DNA of 38,226 nucleotides from a virus, in the IMG/VR virus record IMGVR_UViG_3300037852_000093, positions 1-38,226 of that record, one strand, 5' to 3'. The position numbers were made by a program, and so were the translations under genes. The notes below the pieces were generated by a model, which had not been told where the DNA came from, did no database searches, and saw nothing but the letters and a program-made list of their open reading frames with translations. Of this stretch, positions 16,421 to 32,210 are shown piece by piece (within the stretch, counting starts at the first letter, position 1; every line of letters starts with the position of its first letter).

Positions 16421-16900
16421 ATGCTGCCACTCGATCCAGCAAAGCACGAAGAATACCGAGCGAAAATCCGCGCCGGTAGAGCGCGCCAGCAAGCGCCTTG
16501 GCCGATAGGATCAAAAAAGTCTGATGAAACTCGCGCCCGTATGAGAGCTGGATGCAAGGCAAGTTCTGAGCATCGAACAAAACACCAGCAAGGCGCAAAG
16601 AATACCAATTACGGTAACGGCAAATGGCTGGACAAGAACGGATACGTGTACTTGTCGAATAACGGCAAGATGGAACTTGAGCACCGTGTCATTATGGCGC
16701 GCATCATCGGACGCCAGTTGCTGACGGAAGAAACGGTTCACCACAAAAACGGCAACCGTTCAGATAATCGCGAAGATAATTTGGAGTTGTGGAGTTCCAG
16801 AAATCCGAAAGGACAGAGAATTCCTGACAAGTTGAAGTACGCCCGCGAAATACTTTCTCTGTATGGCGGGAGTGTTTATGACCAGGATTGGCTCGATTAA
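16421..16900 (+). CDS. HNH homing endonuclease
   Basis: A 159-aa protein. LEHRVIMARIIGRQLLTEETVHHKNGNRSDNREDNLELWS carries the H-N-H motif with its H-H-x-N core (HHKNG). The N-terminal part is basic and may bind DNA through a NUMOD-like region (KKSDETRARM). It stands alone between the scaffold and capsid genes, where free-standing phage HNH genes often sit. It is inferred to be a mobile element that interrupts the head operon without breaking a gene. Confidence 0.85.
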   Translation: MLPLDPAKHEEYRAKIRAGRARQQAPWPIGSKKSDETRARMRAGCKASSEHRTKHQQGAKNTNYGNGKWLDKNGYVYLSNNGKMELEHRVIMARIIGRQLLTEETVHHKNGNRSDNREDNLELWSSRNPKGQRIPDKLKYAREILSLYGGSVYDQDWLD

Positions 16901-17996: not shown

Positions 17997-19346
17997 ATGG
18001 GTTTCATGGATATCTCTGGCCAGGGCAACAACTACGCTCAAGTGCCGATCGCGGTTCCAGCCGGCGCCACCTTCCTTTTGCCGCCAGGCCAGGGAGTCGT
18101 GGGTGCGTTCGGCGCCATCTCTACACCGCAGATCGGGACCAACAACCCGCTATCTGGACAGTATTTCCTGCAGCTAGGGCAGTACACGACGCTGCAAATG
18201 TACGACGAAGGGATGGGGTACTGGCAGAACGTCGATGTCACACCCTATGCGCTCGTGACGATTTCCTCAGACGGCGCTAACTTCCGAGTGTCGAACAGCA
18301 CCGGCGGGCCAGTGGGCGCGGTGATCACGGCGGCCGGCTCCGGCGGCACGAACGGCTTCTATGGCTATAGCCAGTTTGGCGCAGGCCAGGGCGGCCAGAT
18401 CGTCATCCAGAACGGTACCACGACGATCGGCAACTCGATTTTCACTATCACGCCGTCCGCCGGCGGATCGTTGTGGAATGCCATCGTTGGAGGTGCAATC
18501 AACGCGACCATTTCCTTCTCTGGCACGGTGTTCAACGGGAATCTGTCGAGTCAGAACCCTTCTGGAGTCGGGCAGTCCCTCACCGCGTTCGGCCAAGGAT
18601 CCGCAGCCGGCGGTATCACTGCGAGCGCTGGTACCAACTATACGAAGCCGCCGCTGATCGTCTTTACGCCGCCGTTGAACCAGGGCAACCAGCCTTATGT
18701 GCTCCCCATCGCGGTCTGCACCATATCCGGTGGTGCCATCAATGCGGTGACCGTGATTGATCAGGGCTGCGGCATGATAAGCCTGCCTGGAATCAACGTG
18801 GTCCCGCAGCCTGGGGATACCACTGGCGGCGGCGCGTGCTTAGGGTGGCTATTCGGTGCCACTGGCACGGCAGGATTGGGTGCTGGCACAGGATCAGGAT
18901 CGGTCCTTGCCATGTGGCCGTACTACACCGGCACGGCCCTGGCTGCGGCTCCGACCTTCACGTACGGCGGCACGAGCAACCCGGCACCTACCGCCACCCC
19001 GATCATGAACTGGACGATCACGTCCATCACCAACACGACTCCTGGCTCAGGGTACACGAACGCGTTCGGCGTTGTGCAAGGCGGCGTGCTGGTGGCGACA
19101 CCGGCGGCGAACACTTCTACCAGTTACACGCAGAAGATCTCAAATCCTGTGTATCCGCCGCTCGTCGTGGCGCCGACCACTGGCGTGACCACCTTGTCAG
19201 GCAACGGCTTCGGCGGCGTGAACTTCCAAGTCGCCCCGACGCTCGCTTTCGGCACGCAGTTGGCTGCCGGCACGGTTACAACGGTGGCGGTGCAGACGCC
19301 GGTCATGGGTGGAGCGTCTGATATCGTGAAGCTGCAGACCTTCTGA
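17997..19346 (+). CDS. Probable capsid-surface (decoration or fibre) protein with GxGY modules
   Basis: A 449-aa protein directly after the capsid gene, with GAGGAG upstream. It is Gly/Thr/Ala/Asn-rich and almost all beta. Residues 1-100 form a base domain (YAQVPIAVPAGATFLLPPG). From about residue 200 on there are repeated 'GxxY...PP' units: AGTNYTKPP (about 209), SGGAINAVTVIDQGCG (about 245) and PGSGYTNAF (about 348). These match the module in the adaptor, nozzle-like and tailspike proteins. Such repeats decorate the capsid in other phages; the exact function is not known. Confidence 0.55.
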   Translation: MGFMDISGQGNNYAQVPIAVPAGATFLLPPGQGVVGAFGAISTPQIGTNNPLSGQYFLQLGQYTTLQMYDEGMGYWQNVDVTPYALVTISSDGANFRVSNSTGGPVGAVITAAGSGGTNGFYGYSQFGAGQGGQIVIQNGTTTIGNSIFTITPSAGGSLWNAIVGGAINATISFSGTVFNGNLSSQNPSGVGQSLTAFGQGSAAGGITASAGTNYTKPPLIVFTPPLNQGNQPYVLPIAVCTISGGAINAVTVIDQGCGMISLPGINVVPQPGDTTGGGACLGWLFGATGTAGLGAGTGSGSVLAMWPYYTGTALAAAPTFTYGGTSNPAPTATPIMNWTITSITNTTPGSGYTNAFGVVQGGVLVATPAANTSTSYTQKISNPVYPPLVVAPTTGVTTLSGNGFGGVNFQVAPTLAFGTQLAAGTVTTVAVQTPVMGGASDIVKLQTF

Positions 19347-19492
19347 TGAAAAAGGCGGTGCAGATTCTGGGTCGCAGAGTTCCACCGCCTTATCACGGCA
19401 CAAAGCAGGAGTTTTTTGACATGATGAAGAAATTGCAAGGCAAGCGCGACGGCGGTCCAGGCCGCAGCGGCGCGCGCCCTTCGCGCGTCTGA
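19346..19492 (+). CDS. 48-aa basic peptide
   Basis: The ATG overlaps the preceding stop (TGATG). The N-terminal half has a hydrophobic/Pro-rich part and the last 20 residues are Arg/Gly-rich (KRDGGPGRSGARPSRV). It has a good chance of being translated by coupling. No function was recognised. Confidence 0.45.
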   Translation: MKKAVQILGRRVPPPYHGTKQEFFDMMKKLQGKRDGGPGRSGARPSRV

Positions 19493-19524
19493 AAGTTTTT
19501 CACCAACACATCCGGAGTTGACAT

Positions 19525-19842
19525 ATGGATGGTATTTTCGTTACGAACAAGAACAAGTTCTTGCACACTGATCGCTACGACGGAGAGGACTTCGTGTTTC
19601 CTCCGGGCGAGAAGGTGTTCATCTCAAAGCCTGCCGCCACGCACATGTTCGGCTGGAACTTGAACGACACCACTGAGGTGTTGGTGCGCTTAGGCTGGGC
19701 CACGGCCTATGACAAGGAATTGAAAAACTTCGTCGAGGACAAGGAAGGGGTGGCGAAACTTGCGAACTTCGTGTTCGATGAGGCGGTGATGGTGTCCAAG
19801 TCGTCGCTCGCGAAAGCGATTGAGAGTCCGGCGGCAGCTTAA
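19525..19842 (+). CDS. Hypothetical structural protein
   Basis: A 105-aa protein with CGGAG upstream of ATG. The order YDGEDFVFPPGEKVFISKPAATHMFGWNLNDTTEVLVRLGW looks like a compact beta-domain protein, and the C-terminal part is helical. It lies between the capsid and adaptor genes and may be a head-completion or head-tail joining protein. No family was recognised. Confidence 0.65.
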   Translation: MDGIFVTNKNKFLHTDRYDGEDFVFPPGEKVFISKPAATHMFGWNLNDTTEVLVRLGWATAYDKELKNFVEDKEGVAKLANFVFDEAVMVSKSSLAKAIESPAAA

Positions 19843-19851
19843 GAGTGGTAA

Positions 19852-20724
19852 GTGACAACTCTTGGCCCCTCGACCACTCCAGGCACCTATGAGTTTCAGG
19901 TCTACGACCAGCTCCACGATCCGAATGGCAATCGCTGGACCGAACCGCAGATCGACGGATACATCAACGAGGCGCGCAAGCAACTGGTCATGGACACCGG
20001 TTGCCTGCGTACTCTTCAGACGACCTACATCACGGGCGGCACCGAGCAGTATCAGTTTGGTGCAGTCAGTGGCGCGTCAATCCTTACACCGGGGGCGAAC
20101 TACTCAAATCCCTCGGTATCTTTCAGCGGTGGTGGGGGAACTGGGGCGGCAGCGACGCTGACGCAAAGTGGTGGTGCTGTCAACACCATCACCTTTACGA
20201 ATTTTGGCTCCGGCTACACTTCGGCCCCCACCGCCGTTGTCTCTGATACCGGCGCCGGCACTGGCGCCACCATTCAAACTGGCGTCATCAACGTCAACAC
20301 CTATGATGTGTTGGGACTGCACTTGATATGGGGAACCGAGCGATACACGCTGCAGTGGTATCCGTTTCGATTGTTCTCAGCATGGTTTAGGCCCTTCACT
20401 GCTGCGAGTTATCAGCGCCAGCCGGTATCGTGGGCAGTGTACGGCGACAATGCCATTTTTTTGGGTCCAACTCCTGACCAGACCTACGGGATCGAAGTTG
20501 ACTCGGTCATCCTGCCGACACCGTTTGCGGTCGGCGACACTACGACAATCGACAACATACCGCCGATGTCGCAGGATCCGATCAAGTTCTATGCTGCATA
20601 TCTAGCCAAGTCGAACGCGCAGAGCTACGGTGAGGCTGAGAAGAAGCTCGAGGAGTATCAGCGTCGCGTGCGCGAGGTGGTGAGCGTGTACACCGGCCGC
20701 CTGCCGGATGTGTATCAAGGATAA
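19852..20724 (+). CDS. Head-to-tail adaptor protein with an inserted GxGY module
   Basis: A 290-aa protein with a GTG start. The N-terminal 75 residues (WTEPQIDGYINEARKQLVMDTGCL) and residues 146-290 (DVLGLHLIWGTERYTLQWYPFRLFSAWFRP, PPMSQDPIKFYAAYLAKSNAQSYGEAEKKLEEYQRRV) resemble podovirus adaptor/connector proteins of the SU10 and gp4 type. Between them, residues of about 76-145 form a Gly-rich module (PGANYSNPS, then GSGYTSAPT, then GTGATIQTG) that is not part of the usual fold. Family members sit under the portal and bind the tail nozzle. Confidence 0.7.
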   Translation: MTTLGPSTTPGTYEFQVYDQLHDPNGNRWTEPQIDGYINEARKQLVMDTGCLRTLQTTYITGGTEQYQFGAVSGASILTPGANYSNPSVSFSGGGGTGAAATLTQSGGAVNTITFTNFGSGYTSAPTAVVSDTGAGTGATIQTGVINVNTYDVLGLHLIWGTERYTLQWYPFRLFSAWFRPFTAASYQRQPVSWAVYGDNAIFLGPTPDQTYGIEVDSVILPTPFAVGDTTTIDNIPPMSQDPIKFYAAYLAKSNAQSYGEAEKKLEEYQRRVREVVSVYTGRLPDVYQG

Positions 20725-20727
20725 GAC

Positions 20728-22713
20728 GTGGCACGGTCGCAGAACGTAGGAGGAGAAAACCCAGAGTTCATCCTTCGCGAATTCATGGGCGTGAATTTGC
20801 TCGACGGCCGTGAGGCAATCAACGATAACGAATTCTACTGGGCTGAGAACATCATCCCTGTGGCGCCGGCTCAAGCCTATCCGGTCGCGCTCGCCAATCT
20901 TTCTGTCAATATCCTTGCAGAAACCAACATTCCTTCGTACACGATGTCCTTTGCCGCGAATGGGCAGAACTACGTTTTCGTGGTGTTTGAAGTAACCGGC
21001 AATGGATATATCGCGAGTATCCCGATCGGATCACCTGTGCTCATCATCACCGGACTTACTTCCGGCCAGACCTACGCGACGCCTTATAACAATCAGGGAA
21101 TTTTGATCATCGATCCGACCGGGTACTGGGATTACGGCGTCACCGCACCTAACACGCTCACGCCGCAGAACAACACTGCCGCGTTCGCAACCCTTACGGG
21201 GGTGGCACAAGCTGTGCTGGGCGGCACGCAACTGAAGCAAATCGTCACGGCAACCGGAACTGGAGCTACATTCCAAGCTGTCTATCAAGTAATCAATGTG
21301 CAATTGCAGAACGCTGGAACCGGCTACGCCGTTGGCGACACCATTTATCTGACGGACGGTAATCCAACCGTACCAGCCACCATTGTTGTGGCATCTATCA
21401 GCGGCGGCGGCAGCACCGGACCCATCACTGGCATTACGCTATCCGCAGGTGGTCAATATCCAGGTCCACCCACATCGACCCTGGTGGCTACAGGTCCGAC
21501 CGGCACGGTCATTACGACTACCGGAGCAGGCACTGGTGCCACGTTCGCCGATCATATTCAAGCAGTGTCGATGCAGATATTGACGCGCGGCTCAGGCTAC
21601 ACTGGCACTACTACGGTGGCGGATGAAACTTCCACAAAAACCATAGATACGTGGAATATTACCTCGAGCGGCGTGATTGGAGGCCAGTCCATCGCAACAT
21701 ACCAGGGGCGCGTGTGGATCAGCTTTAATCGTACTGTCTACTTCACCGACATTAATTCGTACAATTCATTTGGCGGCGCCGGGGGATCGTTCTTCATTTC
21801 TGACTCGTACCTCATTGGCAACATCACGGTTCTCTACGCCGCCAACAACTATCTTTATATTTTTGGCCAGTCATCGATAGATGCGCTCTCCAATGTGACG
21901 ATTACACTAGGTGTGACCTCGTTTTCGCGAATCAATGTCACCGGCACGGTCGGCACCAATTTCCCTGCGTCAGTCACCGCATACTTTCGCGCGATACTGT
22001 TTTATCACTCCTCGGGGATTTACTTACTTGCTGGCGCTACACCGGAGAAGATCTCAGAGAAAATATCGCAAATCATTGCGCTGCCGAACACCGGGCAGCC
22101 GTACGGATTCACAGTGCAAGTGCAAGGTGAGATTTGCGCAGGAATGCAGATAAGTTTCGTGGATAATTTCACGCAAGCCACCTTGCAGAGACCACTATGC
22201 GTGCTCTATTTCCGCGGTCGCTGGTGGTTCTCCTCGTATATGAATCCGAGCCCCACATTCGTGACCACGGCCATCACTAGCATTCCGATAAATGGTGTCG
22301 CAACGGCTTTCGGATGGCGCGCCAATGTGTCCGGCGCCGGTGCCCAGCTCTACGAACTATTCGCAAGCGGAACACTGTCGTCGTGGCTCTTAAAAACCAA
22401 ATTCTGGGACGGTGGCTCCCCAACTCGAGAAAAGCAGTCAATCAACGCCGGGGTAGCGGGTCTGTGGCCGAATGGGGGGGTGTCAGGGGCTGGTCTCACG
22501 GTCAACGTCGATACCGAGTTTGGAACTTCTGCCGCGAACATCACTTCTCCAGCGCCAAACGTCGGCTACAACTTCGAGGTAACTATTGGCAATGAGGGAG
22601 GCAGTCAGTATTTGGGGCTTACTGTGGCCGGAGCATCCGCTGGCGCGCCCGCTATGACCCGCCTTGACATGCTGGCGCTGCGCGGCAAGACCGAGCGGGA
22701 CATGCTGCAATGA
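20728..22713 (+). CDS. Tail nozzle-like protein with an inserted GxGY module
   Basis: A 661-aa protein with a GTG start. It is beta-rich throughout: TYQGRVWISFNRTVYFTDINSYNSFGG, YLYIFGQSSIDALSN, then WWFSSYMNPS and a C-terminal beta-sandwich. This is the pattern of the beta-propeller tail nozzle or stabilisation proteins that follow the adaptor in podoviruses. Residues of about 190-295 carry two or more copies of the Gly-rich module (AGTGYAVGD, GGQYPGPP, GSGYTGTTTV). It overlaps the next gene by four bases (ATGA). Confidence 0.65.
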   Translation: MARSQNVGGENPEFILREFMGVNLLDGREAINDNEFYWAENIIPVAPAQAYPVALANLSVNILAETNIPSYTMSFAANGQNYVFVVFEVTGNGYIASIPIGSPVLIITGLTSGQTYATPYNNQGILIIDPTGYWDYGVTAPNTLTPQNNTAAFATLTGVAQAVLGGTQLKQIVTATGTGATFQAVYQVINVQLQNAGTGYAVGDTIYLTDGNPTVPATIVVASISGGGSTGPITGITLSAGGQYPGPPTSTLVATGPTGTVITTTGAGTGATFADHIQAVSMQILTRGSGYTGTTTVADETSTKTIDTWNITSSGVIGGQSIATYQGRVWISFNRTVYFTDINSYNSFGGAGGSFFISDSYLIGNITVLYAANNYLYIFGQSSIDALSNVTITLGVTSFSRINVTGTVGTNFPASVTAYFRAILFYHSSGIYLLAGATPEKISEKISQIIALPNTGQPYGFTVQVQGEICAGMQISFVDNFTQATLQRPLCVLYFRGRWWFSSYMNPSPTFVTTAITSIPINGVATAFGWRANVSGAGAQLYELFASGTLSSWLLKTKFWDGGSPTREKQSINAGVAGLWPNGGVSGAGLTVNVDTEFGTSAANITSPAPNVGYNFEVTIGNEGGSQYLGLTVAGASAGAPAMTRLDMLALRGKTERDMLQ

Positions 22714-23114
22714 TCATCGATCTTTCGGCCACCACCGGTTTTGGCGATGACTCTGGCATGAAGAACTTCTTTCTCGTGCATCGCTTCATACACGATCAGA
22801 CGGCCGCCGCGCTCACCGCTAAATTTAACGTCGCCGCGTCCAGTTTCGGCATATTCGACTCAAAAGCGGACGATGAGTGGCTCAATTTGATGAAAAACGC
22901 GAAGCCCGGCACTACACCGCCGCCCAGCTTGCGCAATTGGCTGAAAATCCACGCTGATATCCATGTCGCTACTTACACGCTTTTGGGGCAAACTCCTACC
23001 ACAGCGCCTGACTTGTCGCTAGTGGATTTTGGTGACCAGGAACAGTTCTACGACTGGATGTATGTGCATCAGCAAATGCACGATTTCGAGCAAGCCTCAC
23101 TGGGGTTACATTGA
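22710..23114 (+). CDS. Hypothetical tail or virion protein
   Basis: A 134-aa protein coupled to the nozzle-like gene by ATGA. It is helical and aromatic/His-rich (FFLVHRFIHDQTA, WLKIHADIHVATYTLLG, YDWMYVHQQMHDFEQASLGLH). Similar small proteins precede the GNAT-fold gene in podoviruses. No function can be given. Confidence 0.6.
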   Translation: MIIDLSATTGFGDDSGMKNFFLVHRFIHDQTAAALTAKFNVAASSFGIFDSKADDEWLNLMKNAKPGTTPPPSLRNWLKIHADIHVATYTLLGQTPTTAPDLSLVDFGDQEQFYDWMYVHQQMHDFEQASLGLH

Positions 23115-23608
23115 ACGCACAACTGAAGCCTGATATTCGAATTGAGCAGGAGACTTTTACGGAAGCACTCGCGGCTGAGATGTTTCCGCTTGGGCAAGCG
23201 TGCTGGGACGAGAGCACAGAGGTAAAAAAGTCCACGTGCGCGTTTTACGGTGAAAGGAACTTCGCCGTTGATCCGGATATTGAGCGCTACAAGGCGCTGG
23301 CCAAATCTGGGGTTATGATAGTGGTCACTCTGCGAGATGGCGCGACGCTCAATGGCTATGTCATCGGTCTCACGTATCGCAGCCTGCATCAAAAGAAAAT
23401 TGTCTGTGGTTCGATAGATTCCATTTACATCGATCCTCAGTATCGAGCGTACGCGGCTATCGTGTGCGAGAAAATTGAACAAGCGATGAACGTGGAAATC
23501 ATCGGATGGGCCACGCACATAGATGGACCGGTCTATCAAGTCCTAAAAGCGCGCGGCTACGTTGGGGATGATGTGATCATGGAAAAACGCTTCGTGCGGA
23601 GGAACTGA
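23111..23608 (+). CDS. GNAT-fold protein in the ejection-protein cluster
   Basis: A 165-aa protein with a TTG start coupled by TTGA. The acetyltransferase-like fold is suggested by GVMIVVTLRDGATLNGYVIGLTY, 'GSIDSIYIDPQYRAYAAIVCEKIEQAMN' (the position of the acetyl-CoA loop), then 'KARGYVGDDVIMEKRF'. The residues of the usual Q/RxxGxG/A motif are not intact (DPQYRAYAA). A similar GNAT-like protein accompanies internal virion proteins in many podoviruses, with unknown activity. Confidence 0.7.
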   Translation: MNAQLKPDIRIEQETFTEALAAEMFPLGQACWDESTEVKKSTCAFYGERNFAVDPDIERYKALAKSGVMIVVTLRDGATLNGYVIGLTYRSLHQKKIVCGSIDSIYIDPQYRAYAAIVCEKIEQAMNVEIIGWATHIDGPVYQVLKARGYVGDDVIMEKRFVRRN

Positions 23609-23610
23609 TT

Positions 23611-24954
23611 ATGTGCGTAGTCACTGACGCTGTGTTGGCCTTTGTGGAAGAGGCTGGCCCGTTGCTTGAGGGCGCAGGCGATGTCGCGGCTGCCGCTGGA
23701 GCTGCGGACGTTGCTGGAGCGTTTGGCGGAGCTGATTCCACGAGTGCAGGCCTTGGAGATGCCGGCGTGCAGCCAGGGGCTGGAGATTTGAGTTCTTCTG
23801 TGAACGCGAGTTCTTTAGGTCCCAGTACCGACACGGCCGGTGGGGCTGGGCAGACAACCTCAGCACTCGCACCTGGCACGACATCTGATATCCCAACGCT
23901 TACGGTGACAGGAACTCAAAGCGGCGGCGGAGGCTTGAGCGCGGCGCTCGATCAGCTGGGTGGCGGCATTGCCCCCATTGCGGCCTCAGGACTTGCTGCT
24001 GCTGGAGCTGGCGGCGGTGGTAGTGGAGTACCAGGGCAGGCTGGTATCAACGGTCCTGAGAGTGCGCCGGCGCCCAGCAGCCTGTCAGATCAAGGGCCGT
24101 TGCTTGCCAACAATGACATCACGCCTGGGGCTGTGACCGATACTGGTTCAACGCTTGATTCAGGCGGTGGGTTCCTGCCAGCCACTGGAGATTCCAGCGT
24201 CCAGGCCCTCTCGCCGGATGCCATGCAATCCCTTGGAATTACCCCGGCAGATACCACCAATACGGCGCTCACCGACACTTCTGGCGCGTTCGATCCCTCC
24301 AGCGTCGGCGATCCGAACGCTGTCGACATTCAAGGGCCGAGTCTTTTGGATCAGGCTGGCAGCAAGGCCGGAGATATTGGCAAGTGGCTCTCAAGCCCTA
24401 AAAATGCTGCTACCGCCGGCATGTTGGGGCTCTCCCTCAAGAACGCGCTCATTCCCCCTGGGCTGCCGGCCGCCGATAAGGCGGCGCAAGCGAACGCTGC
24501 GGCCTTGACCAAGCAGGCACTGCCGATCATCCAGTCAGGCGGTACGGCGACGCCTGAATGGGCGAGCCAGAAAGCCTCGATCGATGCGACCATCGACAAC
24601 CAGATCAAGCAGCAGACCGAATCCATCATGCAGGCGGCAGCCTCATCTGGAGAGGGAGGTCAGAACTCCGGCATCGTGCAGCAGCAGATCGCGGCCATGA
24701 CGCAGCAGGCGAATCTGAACCGTCAGCAACTCTACGCGCAGGCGCAGCAGCAGAACGTCCAGGCTGCGCTCTCATCTCTCTCAGGTGGGGATCAGACACT
24801 CACGTCCATAGGCTCTACCCAGTTGCAGCAGTCCGAGGAAGCGCAACAATTGGCAGCGCAGACCGCAGAGATGGCGTTGCTGCTGCAGACAGGCCAGAAA
24901 TTGCCTGGCCAAGGCGGTACCGGTATCCAGAGTAGCGGCGGCGGGCCTGGCTGA
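23611..24954 (+). CDS. Internal virion (ejection) protein 1
   Basis: A 447-aa protein with GGAGGAAC upstream. Residues 1-260 are low-complexity Gly/Ala/Ser/Thr/Pro. Residues 265-447 are helical and Gln/Ala-rich (PPGLPAADKAAQANAAALTKQAL, QQQIAAMTQQANLNRQQLYAQAQQQNVQAAL). Position, size and composition match the first of the set of internal proteins that are ejected to form a channel across the cell envelope. Confidence 0.65.
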   Translation: MCVVTDAVLAFVEEAGPLLEGAGDVAAAAGAADVAGAFGGADSTSAGLGDAGVQPGAGDLSSSVNASSLGPSTDTAGGAGQTTSALAPGTTSDIPTLTVTGTQSGGGGLSAALDQLGGGIAPIAASGLAAAGAGGGGSGVPGQAGINGPESAPAPSSLSDQGPLLANNDITPGAVTDTGSTLDSGGGFLPATGDSSVQALSPDAMQSLGITPADTTNTALTDTSGAFDPSSVGDPNAVDIQGPSLLDQAGSKAGDIGKWLSSPKNAATAGMLGLSLKNALIPPGLPAADKAAQANAAALTKQALPIIQSGGTATPEWASQKASIDATIDNQIKQQTESIMQAAASSGEGGQNSGIVQQQIAAMTQQANLNRQQLYAQAQQQNVQAALSSLSGGDQTLTSIGSTQLQQSEEAQQLAAQTAEMALLLQTGQKLPGQGGTGIQSSGGGPG

Positions 24955-26300
24955 TGAGTTCGCCCGCTGACCAGTTGATGCTGGATCGCACGCAGGACAT
25001 TAAAACTGCTGGCGATCGACAGTCCGCGCTTGATGCGCAGCGCACGGCGTCTGCCGGCGCTCGAGAGAAGGAACTGGCGCCGATGGAATCGGCCGTGAAT
25101 AAGGAAATCAGCGGACTTTCGAGTATCAAGCCGCCAAAACAGACGCCGCTGCCGACATACGAGCCAAAGCCGCTAATAGACGCGAAGGAATACCAGGGCT
25201 TGTCGCTGGGACTGATATCCATGGCTTTGATTGGCGGTATCGCCTCAAAAGGCAACTGGATGGGGGCTTCGGCGTCGCTCAATGGCGCATTGAAGGGGTA
25301 CTTGGAGGGAAATCAGGCGGCCGCTGAGAAGGATTACAAGGACTACCAGACCAAGTTCAAGGAAGCGCAGGCGAAAAGTGCCGCGGAGCAGAAGGAATTT
25401 GAGGACATCCTGCAAAACAAGCGCCTGTCGATCAACGACATGCTCACGCAGATCAAAGTCGCGGCCGCGAAGTACGGGCGCGACGATGTGCGCGCGGAGG
25501 CTGAGCAGAAGTCGATCGACGGTATTTGGCGGCGCGTGGAGACCATGGACGCAACGATTGCCAGAATTACGGATGCAGATCAACGCCAACGCGCTTCCCT
25601 TGATGCCGCGCTCGAGAAGCGACAAGAAGGAGAATTCACCGACCAGCAGTCCAAACTGCTTGCGGCGATGGCCGATAAGAATGTCAGCCTACCGGCTGGC
25701 CTGCGCTCGCAGAAGCAGATCAAGTCCACACTCGATGGCCTCATGAAGGAGCATCCGGAACTAGACGCGCAAGGTATTGCTGAGGGCCTCAAGAGCGGCA
25801 AATTGAAGTTTGCGGCCGAGACTAAGGCCGCAAGCACCGCCGGGACGCAGATAGGCAAGGTGGCCTTGGCGTCCAATGAACTGGATAGCTTCGGCGATCA
25901 GGTGTTGGAGGCATCCAGGAACTTGCCGCGCGGTACCAGCATGACATTGAACGGCCTAATGCAGGCGAGCGAGACGCAGTTATCGGATCCAAAGCTGTTG
26001 CGTCTCAAAGTGAAGTTGCAGGCGCTAAATAATGCCTACGATCAGTTATCTGCCCGCGGCGGGACAGACAAGGACAAGCGCGCCCATATACACGAGCTTT
26101 TCAACCAGCAACTATCCGACAAGGCTATTCAGGAGTTGGTGAAATCTGTGAAGGAGGAAGCTGCCGGCGCGCGCGAGGCAGCCAACAAAACGATTGCTGA
26201 GACCTCCAACACCGCCATCCCAGGCGCAGGTCCGCAGGCTCCGGTTTCAGGCGCGCATCCGCCTGATGTGCAGTCGCTCTTGGACAAGTACAACAAGTAA
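24954..26300 (+). CDS. Internal virion (ejection) protein 2
   Basis: A 448-aa, mostly helical, charged protein. It has an early coil (residues 1-55), a hydrophobic GLY-rich segment (SLGLISMALIGGIASKGN, about 83-100) and a long coil (NQAAAEKDYKDYQTKFKEAQAKSAAEQKEFED, about 123-154). It couples to both neighbours by one-base overlaps. It is likely a component of the channel through which DNA crosses the envelope. Confidence 0.65.
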   Translation: MSSPADQLMLDRTQDIKTAGDRQSALDAQRTASAGAREKELAPMESAVNKEISGLSSIKPPKQTPLPTYEPKPLIDAKEYQGLSLGLISMALIGGIASKGNWMGASASLNGALKGYLEGNQAAAEKDYKDYQTKFKEAQAKSAAEQKEFEDILQNKRLSINDMLTQIKVAAAKYGRDDVRAEAEQKSIDGIWRRVETMDATIARITDADQRQRASLDAALEKRQEGEFTDQQSKLLAAMADKNVSLPAGLRSQKQIKSTLDGLMKEHPELDAQGIAEGLKSGKLKFAAETKAASTAGTQIGKVALASNELDSFGDQVLEASRNLPRGTSMTLNGLMQASETQLSDPKLLRLKVKLQALNNAYDQLSARGGTDKDKRAHIHELFNQQLSDKAIQELVKSVKEEAAGAREAANKTIAETSNTAIPGAGPQAPVSGAHPPDVQSLLDKYNK

Positions 26301-27898
26301 TGGCCGACCTAGCTCAAGTCTACGACGCTCTGAAGAAGGCCGACGCGGCAGGCGATACCGCGGGCGCGAAGCGCTTGGCCGACTACATTCGCTCAAGTTC
26401 CTCTGCCCCCCCAAAAGAAAATTCTGATAATGCTGCAATGCAGCGTGAACAACAGATTCAGGCTGGCAACGTTGAGATGAACAAACCACAGCCGTTACCA
26501 GGCTTCTCGCAACTTCGCGACATGGTCACATCGATTCCAAAGGGACTCAACACAGCGGCAACTGGCATAGTAGACGCAGCTTCGCACCCGCTCGATGCCA
26601 TTACTGGCGCGTACAAGAAAGGCTTGAGCGCGATCGACACAGGCATCAACGCGGTCGCGGATCCTGTGGACACCACGAAAAAGGTTGGCGAGCTGCTGAA
26701 GAACACCACTCCGCAGCAGGTAGGCGAGATGATCGGCTCGACCGCGATGGGCGGCGCTGCCGGCAAGGCTGCGGGCGTGCTTGGCGATGTTGCCGGACCT
26801 TCCGTGAAGGCGGCTATGCAGCGCGCTGGCGTCGGCAAACCCGCGTCGCCTACGGTCCGAGACCTCGCGGGAAAAGGAGTTGTTATGACTCCTGGAATGA
26901 GGGGCGGGAAAATTCCCAGCGCTATCGAGCAACGATTGACCAGTATTCCAATCGTCGGCGATGCCATCAAGGCTGCGCGTGGCAAAACCGCTGAACAATG
27001 GAACCGAGCGGAACTGAATGACGCGATCAAAGACGCTGGCGGCAAACCTTTGCCAAAAGACCGCCATGGCCGCGACGCTATATTCCACACTGAGTCTGAG
27101 ATGGACAAGGCCTACGATAGAGTGCTGAGCGGCATGAAGGCTGATTTGAATTCGGCGGACTCTTCCGGCACAACGTTCAGACAGTTCCTTGATCAGACGA
27201 AAACTCTAGCAACGCAAGGCCTTGAGCCAAGCGCGGCCAAGATTGTGAACGATATAGTAGATAAAAAAGTGATAGGAAAATTCGACAAAGCCGGCAATGC
27301 CACCGGTGAAAATGTGAAGGAAATCCAGGAAGCTCTGCGCACAGAGATCAGCGATCTTAAAAGCGGCAACTACCAAGAGAGAAAAGTGGCGCAGGCCTTA
27401 CAGCAGGTCAGCGCAGAGATGAAGGCCATGCTCAAGCGCGAGAATCCGGTGCTTGCTCCAGAATTGGACAAAGTTGATCGCGGCTACGCGAAATTCAAGA
27501 CTTCAAGCCAAGCGTCTCTATATTCGACAAAAGGTGCAGGAGGATACACGCCAGCGCAGAAGCTGCGCGCCATCAAAGCGCGGGACACATCGAAAGGCAA
27601 GCAGCGATATGCGAGCGGTACGGCTCCTGGGCAGAAAGAGGCTGAGGCAGTGGAGAGCGTTATCGGAAATACTGAGCCTGATTCTGGTACCCCAGGTCGA
27701 TTGGCTGCCATGGAAGGTCTGTTGAAAGCAGTGGTAGCGGCGCCAGTGTCTGCCGCGTACTCTCAACCGGTACTTAAGTTCCTGCAGAATCGTGCTCTCA
27801 AGAAGGGCGGTCCATACAAGCCGATCGGAAAATCTGCGCCTATAGCCGGCGCCGCACTTGGCGTGGCGCCATCAGATGATACCGGTGTGGCTCAATAG
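26300..27898 (+). CDS. Internal virion (ejection) protein 3
   Basis: A 532-aa protein. The N-terminal repeat unit LAQVYDALKKADAAGDTAGAKRLADYIRS is a helical pair seen at the start of many podovirus ejection proteins. A Gly/Ala-rich membrane-active stretch (STAMGGAAGKAAGVLGDVAG, about residues 149-168) follows, then a helical body and a C-terminal hydrophobic part. It ends the rightward cluster; its last seven bases overlap a leftward gene. No transglycosylase motif was recognised. Confidence 0.65.
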   Translation: MADLAQVYDALKKADAAGDTAGAKRLADYIRSSSSAPPKENSDNAAMQREQQIQAGNVEMNKPQPLPGFSQLRDMVTSIPKGLNTAATGIVDAASHPLDAITGAYKKGLSAIDTGINAVADPVDTTKKVGELLKNTTPQQVGEMIGSTAMGGAAGKAAGVLGDVAGPSVKAAMQRAGVGKPASPTVRDLAGKGVVMTPGMRGGKIPSAIEQRLTSIPIVGDAIKAARGKTAEQWNRAELNDAIKDAGGKPLPKDRHGRDAIFHTESEMDKAYDRVLSGMKADLNSADSSGTTFRQFLDQTKTLATQGLEPSAAKIVNDIVDKKVIGKFDKAGNATGENVKEIQEALRTEISDLKSGNYQERKVAQALQQVSAEMKAMLKRENPVLAPELDKVDRGYAKFKTSSQASLYSTKGAGGYTPAQKLRAIKARDTSKGKQRYASGTAPGQKEAEAVESVIGNTEPDSGTPGRLAAMEGLLKAVVAAPVSAAYSQPVLKFLQNRALKKGGPYKPIGKSAPIAGAALGVAPSDDTGVAQ

Positions 27899-28026
27899 CC
27901 CATGATCAACTTAAGCGCTCCGGCCACCTCCTGCACGTACTCATTGAGTGTGAGGTATCCGTAAATGAGCGCGGCGCCGATGACGACGGTGATGATGAAA
28001 GTTTGCGTTGTGACCGACTTGTTCAT
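27892..28026 (-). CDS. 44-aa membrane protein on the opposite strand
   Basis: The only leftward gene inside the late block. The start at 28026 has AAAGGAGA eight bases upstream, which is close to ideal. Residues 8-25 are a hydrophobic helix (QTFIITVVIGAALIYGYL), followed by an amphipathic tail. It overlaps the 3' end of the third ejection gene by seven bases. It may be a lysogenic or moron gene with its own promoter. The gap to the right (28027-28133) has no obvious strong promoter on this strand. Confidence 0.6.
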   Translation of the reverse strand: MNKSVTTQTFIITVVIGAALIYGYLTLNEYVQEVAGALKLIMGY

Positions 28027-28133
28027 GTGCGTCTCCTTTGACTGGCGATCCCAGTGTAAGTGGGCAATATCGGCGAAACCACGGTGTTTTGCCATAATGG
28101 GTGTCTTTGGGGTAAAACTGTGAGCCAATCGTG

Positions 28134-28589
28134 ATGAAAACTCTAAGGGAAAGATTCGACGCCAAGCATAAGGTCGATGCCTCGACCGGATGTTGGCTAT
28201 GGACCGCGTGGCGCGACCGGGACGGCTACGGACACATTGCGAGAGGCAAGGCAGGGGAACGGATGATTAAAGCGCATCGAGCGTCTTGGATACTCAATGT
28301 TGCAGAGATACCTGCTGGACTGCAGGTCCTGCATCGTTGTGATACCCCTTCATGCGTAAATCCGGACCATCTTTTCCTGGGAACAAATGCTGACAACCGG
28401 AAAGATAGCGTTTCAAAAGGTAGACATCAGCACGGCTCGCGCCGTAGAGATTCAAAGTTGGATCAGACCACTGTTTTGGAAATAAGAAAATCGACAGATC
28501 CTCTCCGAGTCGCCGCCGCTAGATTTGGCGTTTCCGAATCTTACGTGAGCCTGCTGCGACGTAATTTGCGGTGGAGTCACGTGGAATGA
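28134..28589 (+). CDS. HNH endonuclease
   Basis: A 151-aa protein (ATG 28134; a GTG one codon earlier is possible). CWLWTAWRDRDGYGHI is the N-terminal zinc/beta part. LQVLHRCDTPSCVNPDHLFLGTNADN is the H-N-H motif with the CxxxxC zinc pair. The end is a helix-turn-helix (LRVAAARFGVSESYVSLLRRNLRW) that may set site specificity. An extended -10 (TGC-CATAAT, 28090-28098) lies just before the gene. It is a free-standing homing-type nuclease and not related closely to the one at 16421. Confidence 0.85.
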   Translation: MKTLRERFDAKHKVDASTGCWLWTAWRDRDGYGHIARGKAGERMIKAHRASWILNVAEIPAGLQVLHRCDTPSCVNPDHLFLGTNADNRKDSVSKGRHQHGSRRRDSKLDQTTVLEIRKSTDPLRVAAARFGVSESYVSLLRRNLRWSHVE

Positions 28590-28774
28590 GCGACTCAGAG
28601 CAAGAAGAATCTCCTAACAAAGAGATAGACAGAGCTATAAAGAAAATGTTGAAAGAAATAGGAAATCATCCGGCAGACGTACAGGTAAAGATCATAAACA
28701 GCGCTGTTGGCTGGGAGAAGTGCAAGCATGCAATTACAGACAAGGTCGAAGACTTCGACCCAGATGGACTCTAG
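28586..28774 (+). CDS. Small acidic protein
   Basis: A 62-aa protein starting at 28586, coupled to the HNH gene (ATGA). It is acidic and helical (SPNKEIDRAIKKMLKEIGNHPADVQVKIINSAVGWEK). It may come as a package with the HNH gene. No family was recognised. Confidence 0.6.
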   Translation: MSDSEQEESPNKEIDRAIKKMLKEIGNHPADVQVKIINSAVGWEKCKHAITDKVEDFDPDGL

Positions 28775-28783
28775 GAGTATCAC

Positions 28784-29113
28784 ATGAAAAACGATTTCTT
28801 CCGCCGCGGCGTTCGCATGCAGCATAAATTTGGCGAACTTGAGAAGCACGATTCGCCACTCGGCATTGGCACGTGGGACATCGACGCGCCAATCAGGGTT
28901 TCTTCTTTGGGAAACAACGGCGCTGATGATCGCCCGCGTGAGATTCAGCAAAACGGCGAACACATCTATAGGCCGTTCTCTTCTCCGGTGTGTAAGCCAG
29001 GTGGCGGCTACGCTGACACTAACGGCCCGGCTCCTGACATTTCGCAGTTTTTAGCTATGCCAGTCCCGGTAGGAACCAAGCGGCGCCTCGGACCGCTGAA
29101 GACAGACAAATGA
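28784..29113 (+). CDS. Hypothetical protein, probably structural
   Basis: A 109-aa protein with TAGGAG upstream. It is rich in Gly/Pro with no membrane segment; a disordered appearance is likely. It begins the tail-fibre gene cluster and couples to the next gene (ATGA). Confidence 0.6.
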   Translation: MKNDFFRRGVRMQHKFGELEKHDSPLGIGTWDIDAPIRVSSLGNNGADDRPREIQQNGEHIYRPFSSPVCKPGGGYADTNGPAPDISQFLAMPVPVGTKRRLGPLKTDK

Positions 29114-29451
29114 GCGCTCCATATTCGACCGGACTTGCATGCACTCCTGCGGTCATTGTTGCGAACACCGCAGGCACGCAGTTGGGTGTGTGCGGACCAA
29201 ATGCAGCACAGGCAGCGAGCCAGCCGCTTATATTTGGCGTGCTGCACACCATTACAGTAGCCGCCGACTCAACAGCAAACACGATTACGGTATATGACGG
29301 CACTTCCACATCTGGAACTGTGATAGCTAAAATCATCACGGCGACCACGGTCGTTCCGCAAACATTCACGTTTGACGTGCAGGCCCACATCGGACTTTTC
29401 ATAGCGGTTTCTGGAATGACAACCGGTGCCGTGACCGTCTCCTACGCGTGA
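29110..29451 (+). CDS. Small beta-sandwich virion protein
   Basis: A 113-aa protein rich in Val/Thr/Ala. The order VLHTITVAADSTANTITVYDGTSTSGTVIAKIITATTVVPQTFTFDVQAHIGLFIAVSGMTTGAVTVSYA is a jelly-roll-like repeat seen in small head- or tail-decorating phage proteins. Its exact place in the virion is unknown. Confidence 0.65.
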   Translation: MSAPYSTGLACTPAVIVANTAGTQLGVCGPNAAQAASQPLIFGVLHTITVAADSTANTITVYDGTSTSGTVIAKIITATTVVPQTFTFDVQAHIGLFIAVSGMTTGAVTVSYA

Positions 29452-29454
29452 TCC

Positions 29455-29991
29455 GTGACCGCCCAGCCATCTCCACCAAACACGGTTAATTTCTGGACAG
29501 CTGACGGGTTCAATCAGTGGACTGCGGACGGCTTCTACGGCTGGACTGCTGATGGGTACGAGCCGACGACGATTGAAGCAGCCGTTGCGGCATTTGCCGC
29601 TGCCGGCAAGAACGTGACAATTACTCTAGTGTTTGATCCTCTCGTACCGGTCGGATACGTCATCAGCGGATGGGGACAGCTACTGACGGCCGCTGTCCCA
29701 GGGTCGTACACCAATTTGCTGGTTAGCCAAGGGCCTGCTCCGGTGCCGGTGCCGGTTGCTGTGCCAAATGTCGTTGGCAAGTTCTACTACGACGCTCAAC
29801 TCGCCATACTTGATGCTGGCCTCTTTATCGCGTGCCCAACGTTTCAGCTATCCACATCTGTGCTGCCGCAGTACGTTATCAGCCAATCAATCCCTGCAGG
29901 AACGATGGTGTTGCCGCAGACTCAGGTGACCATAGTCGTATCAGGCTTCACAGTGCTTCAGCAACCCGGCGTGCCGACGCCAGTTCCATGA
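29455..29991 (+). CDS. Virion-associated protein with WTADG repeats and two PASTA-like domains
   Basis: A 178-aa protein with a GTG start. Residues 14-35 hold three eight-residue repeats: WTADGFNQ, WTADGFYG, WTADGYEP. Residues of about 37-94 are a PASTA-like unit ending LLVSQGP. After a Pro/Val linker, residues 103-164 form a clear PASTA domain (VPNVVGKFYYDAQLAILDAGL, then YVISQSIPAGTMV, then VTIVVSG). PASTA domains bind cell-wall peptides in kinases and penicillin-binding proteins. Here they sit one gene upstream of the tailspike, so a role in cell-surface binding is plausible. It overlaps the tailspike by four bases (ATGA). Confidence 0.75.
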   Translation: MTAQPSPPNTVNFWTADGFNQWTADGFYGWTADGYEPTTIEAAVAAFAAAGKNVTITLVFDPLVPVGYVISGWGQLLTAAVPGSYTNLLVSQGPAPVPVPVAVPNVVGKFYYDAQLAILDAGLFIACPTFQLSTSVLPQYVISQSIPAGTMVLPQTQVTIVVSGFTVLQQPGVPTPVP

Positions 29992-32210
29992 CACAGACGG
30001 TAATCAACACTGGTGTTGTTGCCGGTGATGGCACCGGTTCTCGCGGCCAAGTTCCGTGGAACGCGTTCAACACCAACTCCACCGAGCTTTACTCGAAAGC
30101 GTATTTCTTCGGAGTAGATTCTGGCGCGACTAATGCGTATGTCGCGACACTTGCGAGTCTGATACCAAATCCAGCAGTTGCGCCAGCACTTGCCGCAGGC
30201 GTAGCGGTGCGGATCACGCCTACACACGTCAACACTGGGGCATCCACGTTTAATTTCGCTGGAACCGGCGCTGTTGCGATCCAAACTATCGCAGGATCTG
30301 CGCTCGTTGGTGGCGAGATGCAACCTGTGCCACTGATCCTGCAGTACAACGGAACAGCGTGGCAAATAGTGTCGTCGTCTGCATCTGCGACCCAGGCAGG
30401 CATTGGCTCCATCCTCTACCCCCAGACCGCAGCGGAACTCGCCGCAGGCGTCACGCCGGTGAATTTTTTCTGGCCGGTGGGCTATGTAGATCGTTACGGC
30501 ACGAACACGACGCCCGGCACGACTAACATGACGACAGCGATCACGAATGCGATTGCGGTCATCAAACAGCAAGGCGGCGGCGAAATAGTTTTCCAGCCCG
30601 GGGTGGATTACTTTGTGGTCCCGGCAGCGGGTGGACCCACCGGAGTCACCGCCTTTACGATGAGCGCGATGAGCAATGTGACTATCCGAGGACGCGCCAG
30701 GATAGTCAGTAATACGCCGACTCCCAGCATCCCGGTCATCTTCTTGCTTCAGGACTGCAACCAAGTCACTTTCGATAGCCTGCGCTTCTATGATACAGGC
30801 GCCAATATTTCGGTCGATTTCCAAGGTCCGTGGTGTGTGTACCCGACCACCACGACATCGAATGACTGCGGGGGCATTCACCTGAAAGATGTGGAGACGC
30901 AGAACGTCTTAGGCCCCTTTGCTGCGGTACTGACCACGGGCACCGGGCGAGTGCGCGGAATCCACTTCTCTAACTTGAAGGCCGATACGTGCTACTACGG
31001 CACCCCTAGCCTTCAAAACCAAGGCGATGCTGTTACGGGCAACGTGATCGTGAATAATTGCCGCCGCGCAGGGTTCCCTTATGGGATCACCGGCATGAAC
31101 ATGACCTACGACATTTGGCACGATGCTAGTTCGGTCGGTGCCAACGCGACGCTCGATATAAAGCGTTACACCCGCGATACCTCTGGGATCAAGATCCGGG
31201 TGAGCTTCCACGGCTTTCTGACCCAATTCGGCTCCCTTGTGAACTTCGAGTCGCAATCAACCCTTGCGAATCTCGGCATTACCGGATTTGGCGCGATCAC
31301 TGCCGGGTCAGGGTATGTGAGCGGCTGGTATGCGAATGTACCGCTCACGGGAGGCACGGGAACCGGCGCTACCGCAACCATTGAGATCGTGAGTGGGGCG
31401 GTCGCGGGAGTATGGATTTGTAACCGCGGTAACGGGTATCTGACCAGCGATAGTCTCAGCTGCGCGGCTGCGAGTGTCGGTGGGACTGGTTCAGGATTTG
31501 CGGTAGCTGTCTCTGCGGTAGGCGGCACGATCAGCAACGTGGATATAGACTTGGATCTATCGGGTGCGACTTATGCAGACCCGACAGTGACCGGTACCAC
31601 CCCTTTCCCGGTCCAGTTTCGCTCACTCGCCCCAGGGGGATCTCTCAATACGACCACCACCGATGTGTACGACAACATCACCATTCGCGGCAACTTGGGC
31701 GATTGGTCCTTTGCTCAACCAGGGCAGACTCCCCAAGCCATAAATATTCTCTCCGTTCAAACTGGACTTCCTGGTCGGCTGCACCTAGGCGGAGATTTCT
31801 TCGGCAACTTTGGTGGCTCCCCGCAGTGGTATCCGGGTTTTGTGGTTCGCACCACGGCGGACACCGATGTATTCACCAAGCTCGGAGACTTAACTGCCGC
31901 TCCCGTCGCGGTCGATCTGTCGAAGTACGATGGTCAGTCCTTCGCGCTTCGCATAACCATACATGCGGTATTGAACTGGGCTTCGGGTGGAAGTGCGACC
32001 AACAACGAGTACATCATCACGGGTTATAAGATTGCTGGCAGTGCGCCTAATCTTGCCACAACGACTGCTGGACTTTCATCCACCGTGGGCACCGTCTCAA
32101 CCGTGTCCTTTGCCTCATCTGGCGGAAACTTGAATGTGAGTTTCACCAACTACAATAACGCTCAGTCGTACCTGAAAATGAGTGTTCAGCATTTAGACCG
32201 GTTCCTGTGA
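29988..32210 (+). CDS. Tailspike with beta-helix and a GxGY module
   Basis: A 740-aa protein. The start at 29988 follows the ATGA overlap. Residues 1-150 form the particle-binding part. Residues of about 180-430 show parallel beta-helix (pectin-lyase-like) features: GGGEIVFQPGVDYFVV, then 'MSNVTIRGRARIVSN', 'CNQVTFDSLRFYDTG', 'VRGIHFSNLKAD' and 'VIVNNCRRAG'. A Gly-rich GxGY module follows at about 435-518 (AGSGYVSGW, GTGATATIEI, RGNGYLTSD), then a C-terminal beta-sandwich. The protein binds and probably cleaves a host surface polysaccharide. Confidence 0.8.
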   Translation: MTQTVINTGVVAGDGTGSRGQVPWNAFNTNSTELYSKAYFFGVDSGATNAYVATLASLIPNPAVAPALAAGVAVRITPTHVNTGASTFNFAGTGAVAIQTIAGSALVGGEMQPVPLILQYNGTAWQIVSSSASATQAGIGSILYPQTAAELAAGVTPVNFFWPVGYVDRYGTNTTPGTTNMTTAITNAIAVIKQQGGGEIVFQPGVDYFVVPAAGGPTGVTAFTMSAMSNVTIRGRARIVSNTPTPSIPVIFLLQDCNQVTFDSLRFYDTGANISVDFQGPWCVYPTTTTSNDCGGIHLKDVETQNVLGPFAAVLTTGTGRVRGIHFSNLKADTCYYGTPSLQNQGDAVTGNVIVNNCRRAGFPYGITGMNMTYDIWHDASSVGANATLDIKRYTRDTSGIKIRVSFHGFLTQFGSLVNFESQSTLANLGITGFGAITAGSGYVSGWYANVPLTGGTGTGATATIEIVSGAVAGVWICNRGNGYLTSDSLSCAAASVGGTGSGFAVAVSAVGGTISNVDIDLDLSGATYADPTVTGTTPFPVQFRSLAPGGSLNTTTTDVYDNITIRGNLGDWSFAQPGQTPQAINILSVQTGLPGRLHLGGDFFGNFGGSPQWYPGFVVRTTADTDVFTKLGDLTAAPVAVDLSKYDGQSFALRITIHAVLNWASGGSATNNEYIITGYKIAGSAPNLATTTAGLSSTVGTVSTVSFASSGGNLNVSFTNYNNAQSYLKMSVQHLDRFL

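Follow-up and report, generated by a model that had tools for sequence, protein, structure and literature searches.

Gene order and position of the modules

The window, by which we mean the whole stretch of DNA analysed, is a virus record of 38,226 bases from a short-tailed environmental phage. Its genes follow a podovirus-like order: terminase, portal, major capsid protein, capsid-associated protein, a 105-amino-acid protein, adaptor, nozzle, further proteins, a PASTA protein and tailspike. Two putative HNH-like open reading frames, recognized from their sequence, lie at 16421-16900 and 28131-28589, the former directly 5' of the major capsid protein gene.

Four of the virion proteins, all encoded on the plus strand, contain glycine-rich GxGY units. 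The gene for the capsid-associated protein (17997-19346; 449 amino acids) is directly 3' of the major capsid protein gene, and every relative that carries this gene has it between those for the major capsid protein and the adaptor. Its module (18609-18836, about residues 205-280) consists of two units, one beginning AGTNYTKPP and one ending GGAINAVTVIDQGCG, and a further unit is encoded at 19008-19112 (about residues 338-372, TITSITNTTPGSGYTNAF). The tail adaptor gene (19852-20724; 290 amino acids, SU10/GP4-type fold) carries an inserted module with six predicted strands at 20059-20289 (residues 70-146). The nozzle gene (20728-22713; 661 amino acids, platform plus beta-propeller) contains an array at 21217-21663 (residues 164-312), and the tailspike gene (29988-32210; 740 amino acids, with its ATG at 29988) contains a module at 31275-31547 (about residues 430-520).

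A single module family shared by four virion proteins

The initial annotation proposed that one GxGY module occurs in these four proteins and quoted seven motifs, all of which we found in the translations: AGTNYTKPP in the capsid-associated protein, PGANYSNPS and GSGYTSAPT in the adaptor, AGTGYAVGD and GSGYTGTTTV in the nozzle, and AGSGYVSGW and RGNGYLTSD in the tailspike. The proposal of a single family is supported by profile ranking, shuffled controls, profile-profile comparison and orthologues. A unit profile of 39 columns, built from 232 units of relatives that do not belong to the window lineage, ranked the four proteins as the top four among the six-frame open reading frames of the window, with scores (null2 correction off) of 79.4 bits for the adaptor, 52.6 for the capsid-associated protein, 35.1 for the nozzle and 27 for the tailspike; the next open reading frame scored 10.7 bits. 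When each protein was shuffled 2,000 times with doublets preserved, the real score was reached by none of the shuffles of the adaptor, capsid-associated protein and nozzle and by one shuffle of the tailspike, the weakest of the four. An earlier profile made from only three cyanophages, with units of L009 and L010 as seeds, again placed the four proteins at the top of the six-frame open reading frames, with a weaker result for the nozzle, whose score was reached by 15 of 2,000 shuffles. An HMM built from six adaptor sequences was too narrow and matched the adaptor alone, and tblastn with the adaptor module alone returned no phage match, probably as a result of low-complexity filtering.

With the HMMER composition correction switched on, only the adaptor was significant and the other three proteins were weak as single sequences; the claim for the capsid-associated protein, nozzle and tailspike is therefore drawn from their families. 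In profile-profile comparisons the adaptor module matched that of the capsid-associated protein at 94%, that of the tailspike at 88% and those of distant nozzles at 99%; the match to nozzles of the window lineage was 44%, with a score of 27 against at most 14 in 20 column-shuffled controls. Each of the links from the adaptor module to the capsid-associated, tailspike and nozzle modules exceeded 20 such controls, and some pairs of modules, such as capsid-associated and tailspike, gave no direct match. Homologues of the capsid-associated protein carry clear units (148 bits in L099 and 131 bits in L097), and such homologues were also recovered in several relatives when the profile contained no capsid-associated sequence. 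It could be argued that the likeness is a chance outcome of a composition rich in glycine, serine and threonine, as the loss of significance in three of the four proteins under composition correction would allow. The shuffled sequences, with the exception of one tailspike shuffle, and the column-shuffled profiles, however, fall below the real scores, orthologues reach 131-216 bits, and an equally Gly/Thr-rich CBM-like insert found in other adaptors gave no profile-profile match to the GxGY profiles, so that we regard chance composition as very improbable.

An exchangeable insert in the adaptor

The window adaptor is an SU10/GP4-type podovirus adaptor. It matches the Pfam family SU10_adaptor (PF24175) at 47.1 bits, above the 27-bit threshold, and fold comparison gave a VIA Z of 15.7 to 8jov_2 (GP4) and 12.4 to SU10 7z47_A. 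An AlphaFold model made with 35 sequences (pLDDT 88.7) has six strands at residues 72-145, and the insert sits in the beta part of the protein between helices. The module had been placed at about residues 76-145, inside a fold that would be continuous without it. The model agrees with this placement, putting it at 72-144, and relatives that lack it align across the site: the SU10_adaptor profile runs unbroken through the insert-free adaptor of L100. The adaptor dock loops and Ig-like nozzle domains of SU10 are likewise additions to the same two proteins, but they are other domains, and a GxGY unit does not fit into the SU10_adaptor profile, whose length is 194.

We found three states between the conserved segments ..CLRxxQ and ..NTxDVxxI: a linker of 20-25 amino acids, the GxGY module, or an unrelated CBM5/12-like insert. 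Among 111 distinct adaptors, 13 have the short linker, 27 the GxGY module and 71 the CBM-like insert. On an adaptor tree built without the insert columns, three state changes are needed and GxGY occurs in two separate places; its two changes are forced by the starred branches, and the module was therefore gained or lost at this site more than once. The best PDB match of the alternative insert is the chitin-binding domain of chitinase A1 (E 0.0043); its other top matches include chitin deacetylases and the receptor-binding domain of a cyanophage tailspike (E 0.004-0.044 overall), and Pfam gave weak matches to the K1-lyase C-terminal family and CBM_5_12. The GxGY module itself does not appear to be a CBM5/12 chitin-binding domain, as Pfam returned no such match for it and its profiles do not match the CBM-like insert. 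Adaptor genes with a CBM5/12-like domain at the site of the GxGY module include those of L009, L039-L090 and others.

A variable array in the nozzle

The nozzle protein, a platform with a beta-propeller, resembles the nozzle proteins of Pa223, crAss001, GP4, SU10 and P22 (Z 22-26). Its GxGY array is confined to one site, at which relatives have from zero to about seven units: the L098 nozzle has 18 amino acids and no units there, and the others have two to seven. In four records (L124, L135, L138 and L145) a CBM-like domain lies between the GxGY units of the array, and the adaptors of the same records have no insert. A nozzle homologue of 1171 amino acids encoded at L099:9959-13471 has additional fn3 and lactonase-type propeller matches.

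A variable array in a propeller-type nozzle, present both in the window and in its relatives, is what might be expected if the modules were spacers or stabilizing beads, with the nozzle copies replacing the Ig-like nozzle domains of SU10 and setting the length of the tail tip, and the copies elsewhere only stabilizing the virion. In SU10 such domains interrupt the propeller between its blades and form the nozzle by straightening (PMC9509320). Spacing would not account for the single copies in the adaptor and tailspike, however, nor for a nozzle without any units such as that of L098, and we consider this role unlikely.

The tailspike and the neighbouring PASTA protein

The N-terminal ~190 amino acids of the tailspike are conserved in relatives and the remainder is not. 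This N terminus was matched in three of 20 records, too few to correlate with the type of adaptor insert. The GxGY module was not found in the few related tailspikes, which share only the N-terminal part, and since it was not seen there, the tailspike module may be the youngest of the copies.

The tailspike gene is adjoined by a gene for a PASTA-domain protein (PF03793; 29455-29991) that starts with three WTADG(F/Y) motifs, their tryptophans spaced 8 amino acids apart; the motifs are conserved in L165, L167 and L021. In SU10, three spaced tryptophans of the dock loop clamp the trimeric fibre (PMC9509320), and by this analogy the PASTA protein may be a spike dock.

Distribution and age of the copies

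One query found the module in 105 phage records, mostly marine cyanophages, and each of the 20 relatives tested carries it somewhere in its genome. The sheath of cyanophage S-PM2, cyanophage gp7 and fibres contain GxGY units as well. The virion proteins of marine cyanophages (gp7, gp8, tail fibres and S-PM2 gp18; PHROGs 701, 708, 5342, 19630 and 460) share the GxGY unit with the window, and, as in the window, it is found in several of the virion proteins of a single phage. Those proteins are long and belong to large T4-like phages, whereas the window has one to few units per protein in a 38 kb short-tailed phage, and its lineage adds a clear insertion site, shown by the insert-free relatives. 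A two-unit GxGY module is also inserted in the SusD domain of a SusD/RagB protein from a Niabella MAG (L188:1690-3576), so that this carrier is bacterial, a glycan-uptake lipoprotein; the search for cellular carriers was a single-sequence scan and samples such carriers only. No description of the module was found in the open papers searched, and a prior description elsewhere is possible.

The initial annotation had suggested that the module was copied or shuffled within one genome. As a recent event, this does not agree with our comparisons. Four genes of one genome do carry the module, and the tailspike copy was not seen in relatives, as gene-to-gene copying within the window genome would predict. 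Against it, in 221 of 227 comparisons the closest counterpart of a unit from the adaptor, nozzle or capsid-associated protein was at the same site in another genome, no direct DNA repeats were found among the module regions of the genes, and profile-aligned identity between modules of different genes is only about 20-30%. Recent copying is thus highly improbable. The similarity of same-site units across genomes, together with the lack of DNA repeats, indicates that the copies are old in these lineages; recombination may have spread them at an earlier time, whether within a genome or from one genome to another.

A distant relationship of the module to T4 gp18 domain I

The adaptor module alone (residues 72-144) aligns with residues 98-185 of T4 gp18 with a Z of 5.8-6.5, where values of about 6 are in the range of common arrangements and a Z below 8 alone is no proof (rmsd 2.8-3.1 over 71-73 residues; 16-22% identity). 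This part of gp18 is domain I, a six-stranded barrel with a helix (PMC3004832; PMC8570332). A sequence link was found through the nozzle. In hhalign, a profile of gp18 domain I from 12 T4-like phages matched the nozzle module of the window lineage at 76% (E 2.8e-6, 91 columns), with a score of 33 against at most 6 in controls and with GSNYAVGDKI aligned to GTGYAVGDTI; domain I is covered in full by the stretch of the nozzle array encoded at 21274-21588 on the plus strand (residues 183-287). Of 177,635 PDB sequences, gp18 sheaths came first and second in a search with a nozzle-module profile made without T4 (E 0.005 and 0.049), the matches falling on domain I. The Pfam family Gp18_dom_I (PF22639) matches the nozzles of L100, L093, L002 and L022 with E values of 4e-4 to 0.009; these matches lie below the curated cut-off of 27 bits, the best relative scoring 20.6 bits and the window nozzle 11.9.

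In profile-profile comparison the adaptor module did not match gp18 domain I (0.03%). When a profile was built from adaptor- and tailspike-type units alone, it hit no relevant solved structure, and single-sequence PDB searches with the adaptor and tailspike yielded nothing useful. The link of adaptor-type units to gp18 therefore consists of their fold and of the nozzle-type units. We describe the GxGY module as distantly related to gp18 domain I, with the fold evidence coming from the adaptor module and the sequence link from nozzle-type units, but do not assign it to PF22639 because the Pfam scores are below the cut-off and adaptor-type units are unmatched. Like gp18 domain I (PDB 3FOA and 3FO8), the module has six predicted strands and a glycine/serine loop before the last strand, is of about equal size and is inserted into another domain; nozzle-type units also have a GxNY/GxGY loop followed by VGD. 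The two differ in that the T4 barrel has an alpha-helix beside it, which is absent from residues 72-144 of the adaptor model, and in their hosts, which here are a podovirus adaptor, nozzle, capsid-associated protein and tailspike but in T4 a contractile sheath.

Domain I of T4 gp18 is outermost, protrudes from the tail without inter-subunit contacts and binds the retracted long tail fibres, and the substitutions G106S, S175F and A178V inhibit fibre retraction (PMC3004832). When the T4 gp18 sequence is numbered without the initial Met, all three mutated wild-type residues fit: G106 is the first glycine of GSNY, and S175 and A178 lie in the loop SSSGLAA. These sites align with the GxGY and GTGA loops of the module, respectively. 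That mutations blocking fibre retraction fall on both signature loops raises the possibility that the module serves specifically to dock fibres or spikes of the phage itself, like gp18 domain I or like the adaptor dock loops of SU10, which hold the long fibre (PMC9509320); the position of the adaptor insert, in the beta part between helices, would suit such a dock. Yet adaptors of the same family have no module there or have a CBM5/12-like domain instead, L033 has a GxGY adaptor in a record without this tailspike N terminus, and the copies in the capsid-associated and SusD proteins would be left unexplained. By analogy with T4 and SU10, a dedicated dock is conceivable but rather doubtful.

A possible adhesion role

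On the reading we prefer, the module would be a small all-beta surface domain, distantly homologous to gp18 domain I, that entered exposed loops of several virion proteins on separate occasions and was then inherited at its sites in short-tailed phages. Because only permissive loops would accept it, it could be gained, lost and multiplied, as from zero to about seven copies in the nozzle, without disturbing the assembly core, and the adaptor site could be left empty or filled with either a GxGY module or a CBM5/12-like domain. The two glycine-rich loops, GxGY and GTGA, would form a weak binding patch, present in many copies between the capsid and the tip of the tail, through which the whole virion might stick to the cell surface or its glycans, or hold a tail fibre or spike. 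The shared module, its insertion, the swapping at its site and its relationship to gp18 domain I are computed results. As a whole, the explanation that a single gp18-domain-I-like module, inserted in permissive loops and facing outward, acts as an interchangeable, multivalent adhesion or docking domain is probably correct.

Outward display, with the orientation taken from homologues, as well as binding and the class of ligand, are inferred. A binding role of the two loops is favoured because of the sites of the T4 mutations, the swap with a CBM-type domain and the copy in a SusD lipoprotein; the glycine loops may instead be conserved for folding. The relationship to gp18 domain I and the exchange with a CBM5/12-like domain give specific support to surface adhesion, and the cell surface or its glycans would be the likeliest class of ligand, an assignment that we make tentatively. 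Among the possible roles we accordingly rank adhesion first, docking second and a spacer or stabilizing role third. Phage Ig-like domains, for which weak carbohydrate binding has been proposed (as discussed in PMC9230969), are also optional, exchangeable beta domains of capsid and tail proteins on virion surfaces, but the nearest solved fold of the GxGY module is gp18 domain I; none of the four proteins matched an Ig family in Pfam, and the absence of Ig folds from the fold lists is no proof.

It is possible, although we would not yet favour it, that the adaptor loop is a natural exchange socket, either left empty or filled with a gp18-domain-I-like module or a domain of the chitin-binding type, and that the gp18-like module is a general virion adhesin which reached the capsid, neck, nozzle, spike and contractile sheath in unrelated phages as well as SusD proteins of bacteria. 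These results give a fold lead for a very common, unannotated repeat of environmental phage virions and tie it to a T4 domain for which mutants exist. They also point to defined insertion sites, one in the adaptor and one in the nozzle, at which binding domains are exchanged in nature, and they make the role of optional virion surface domains testable, with the insert-free relatives as natural controls.
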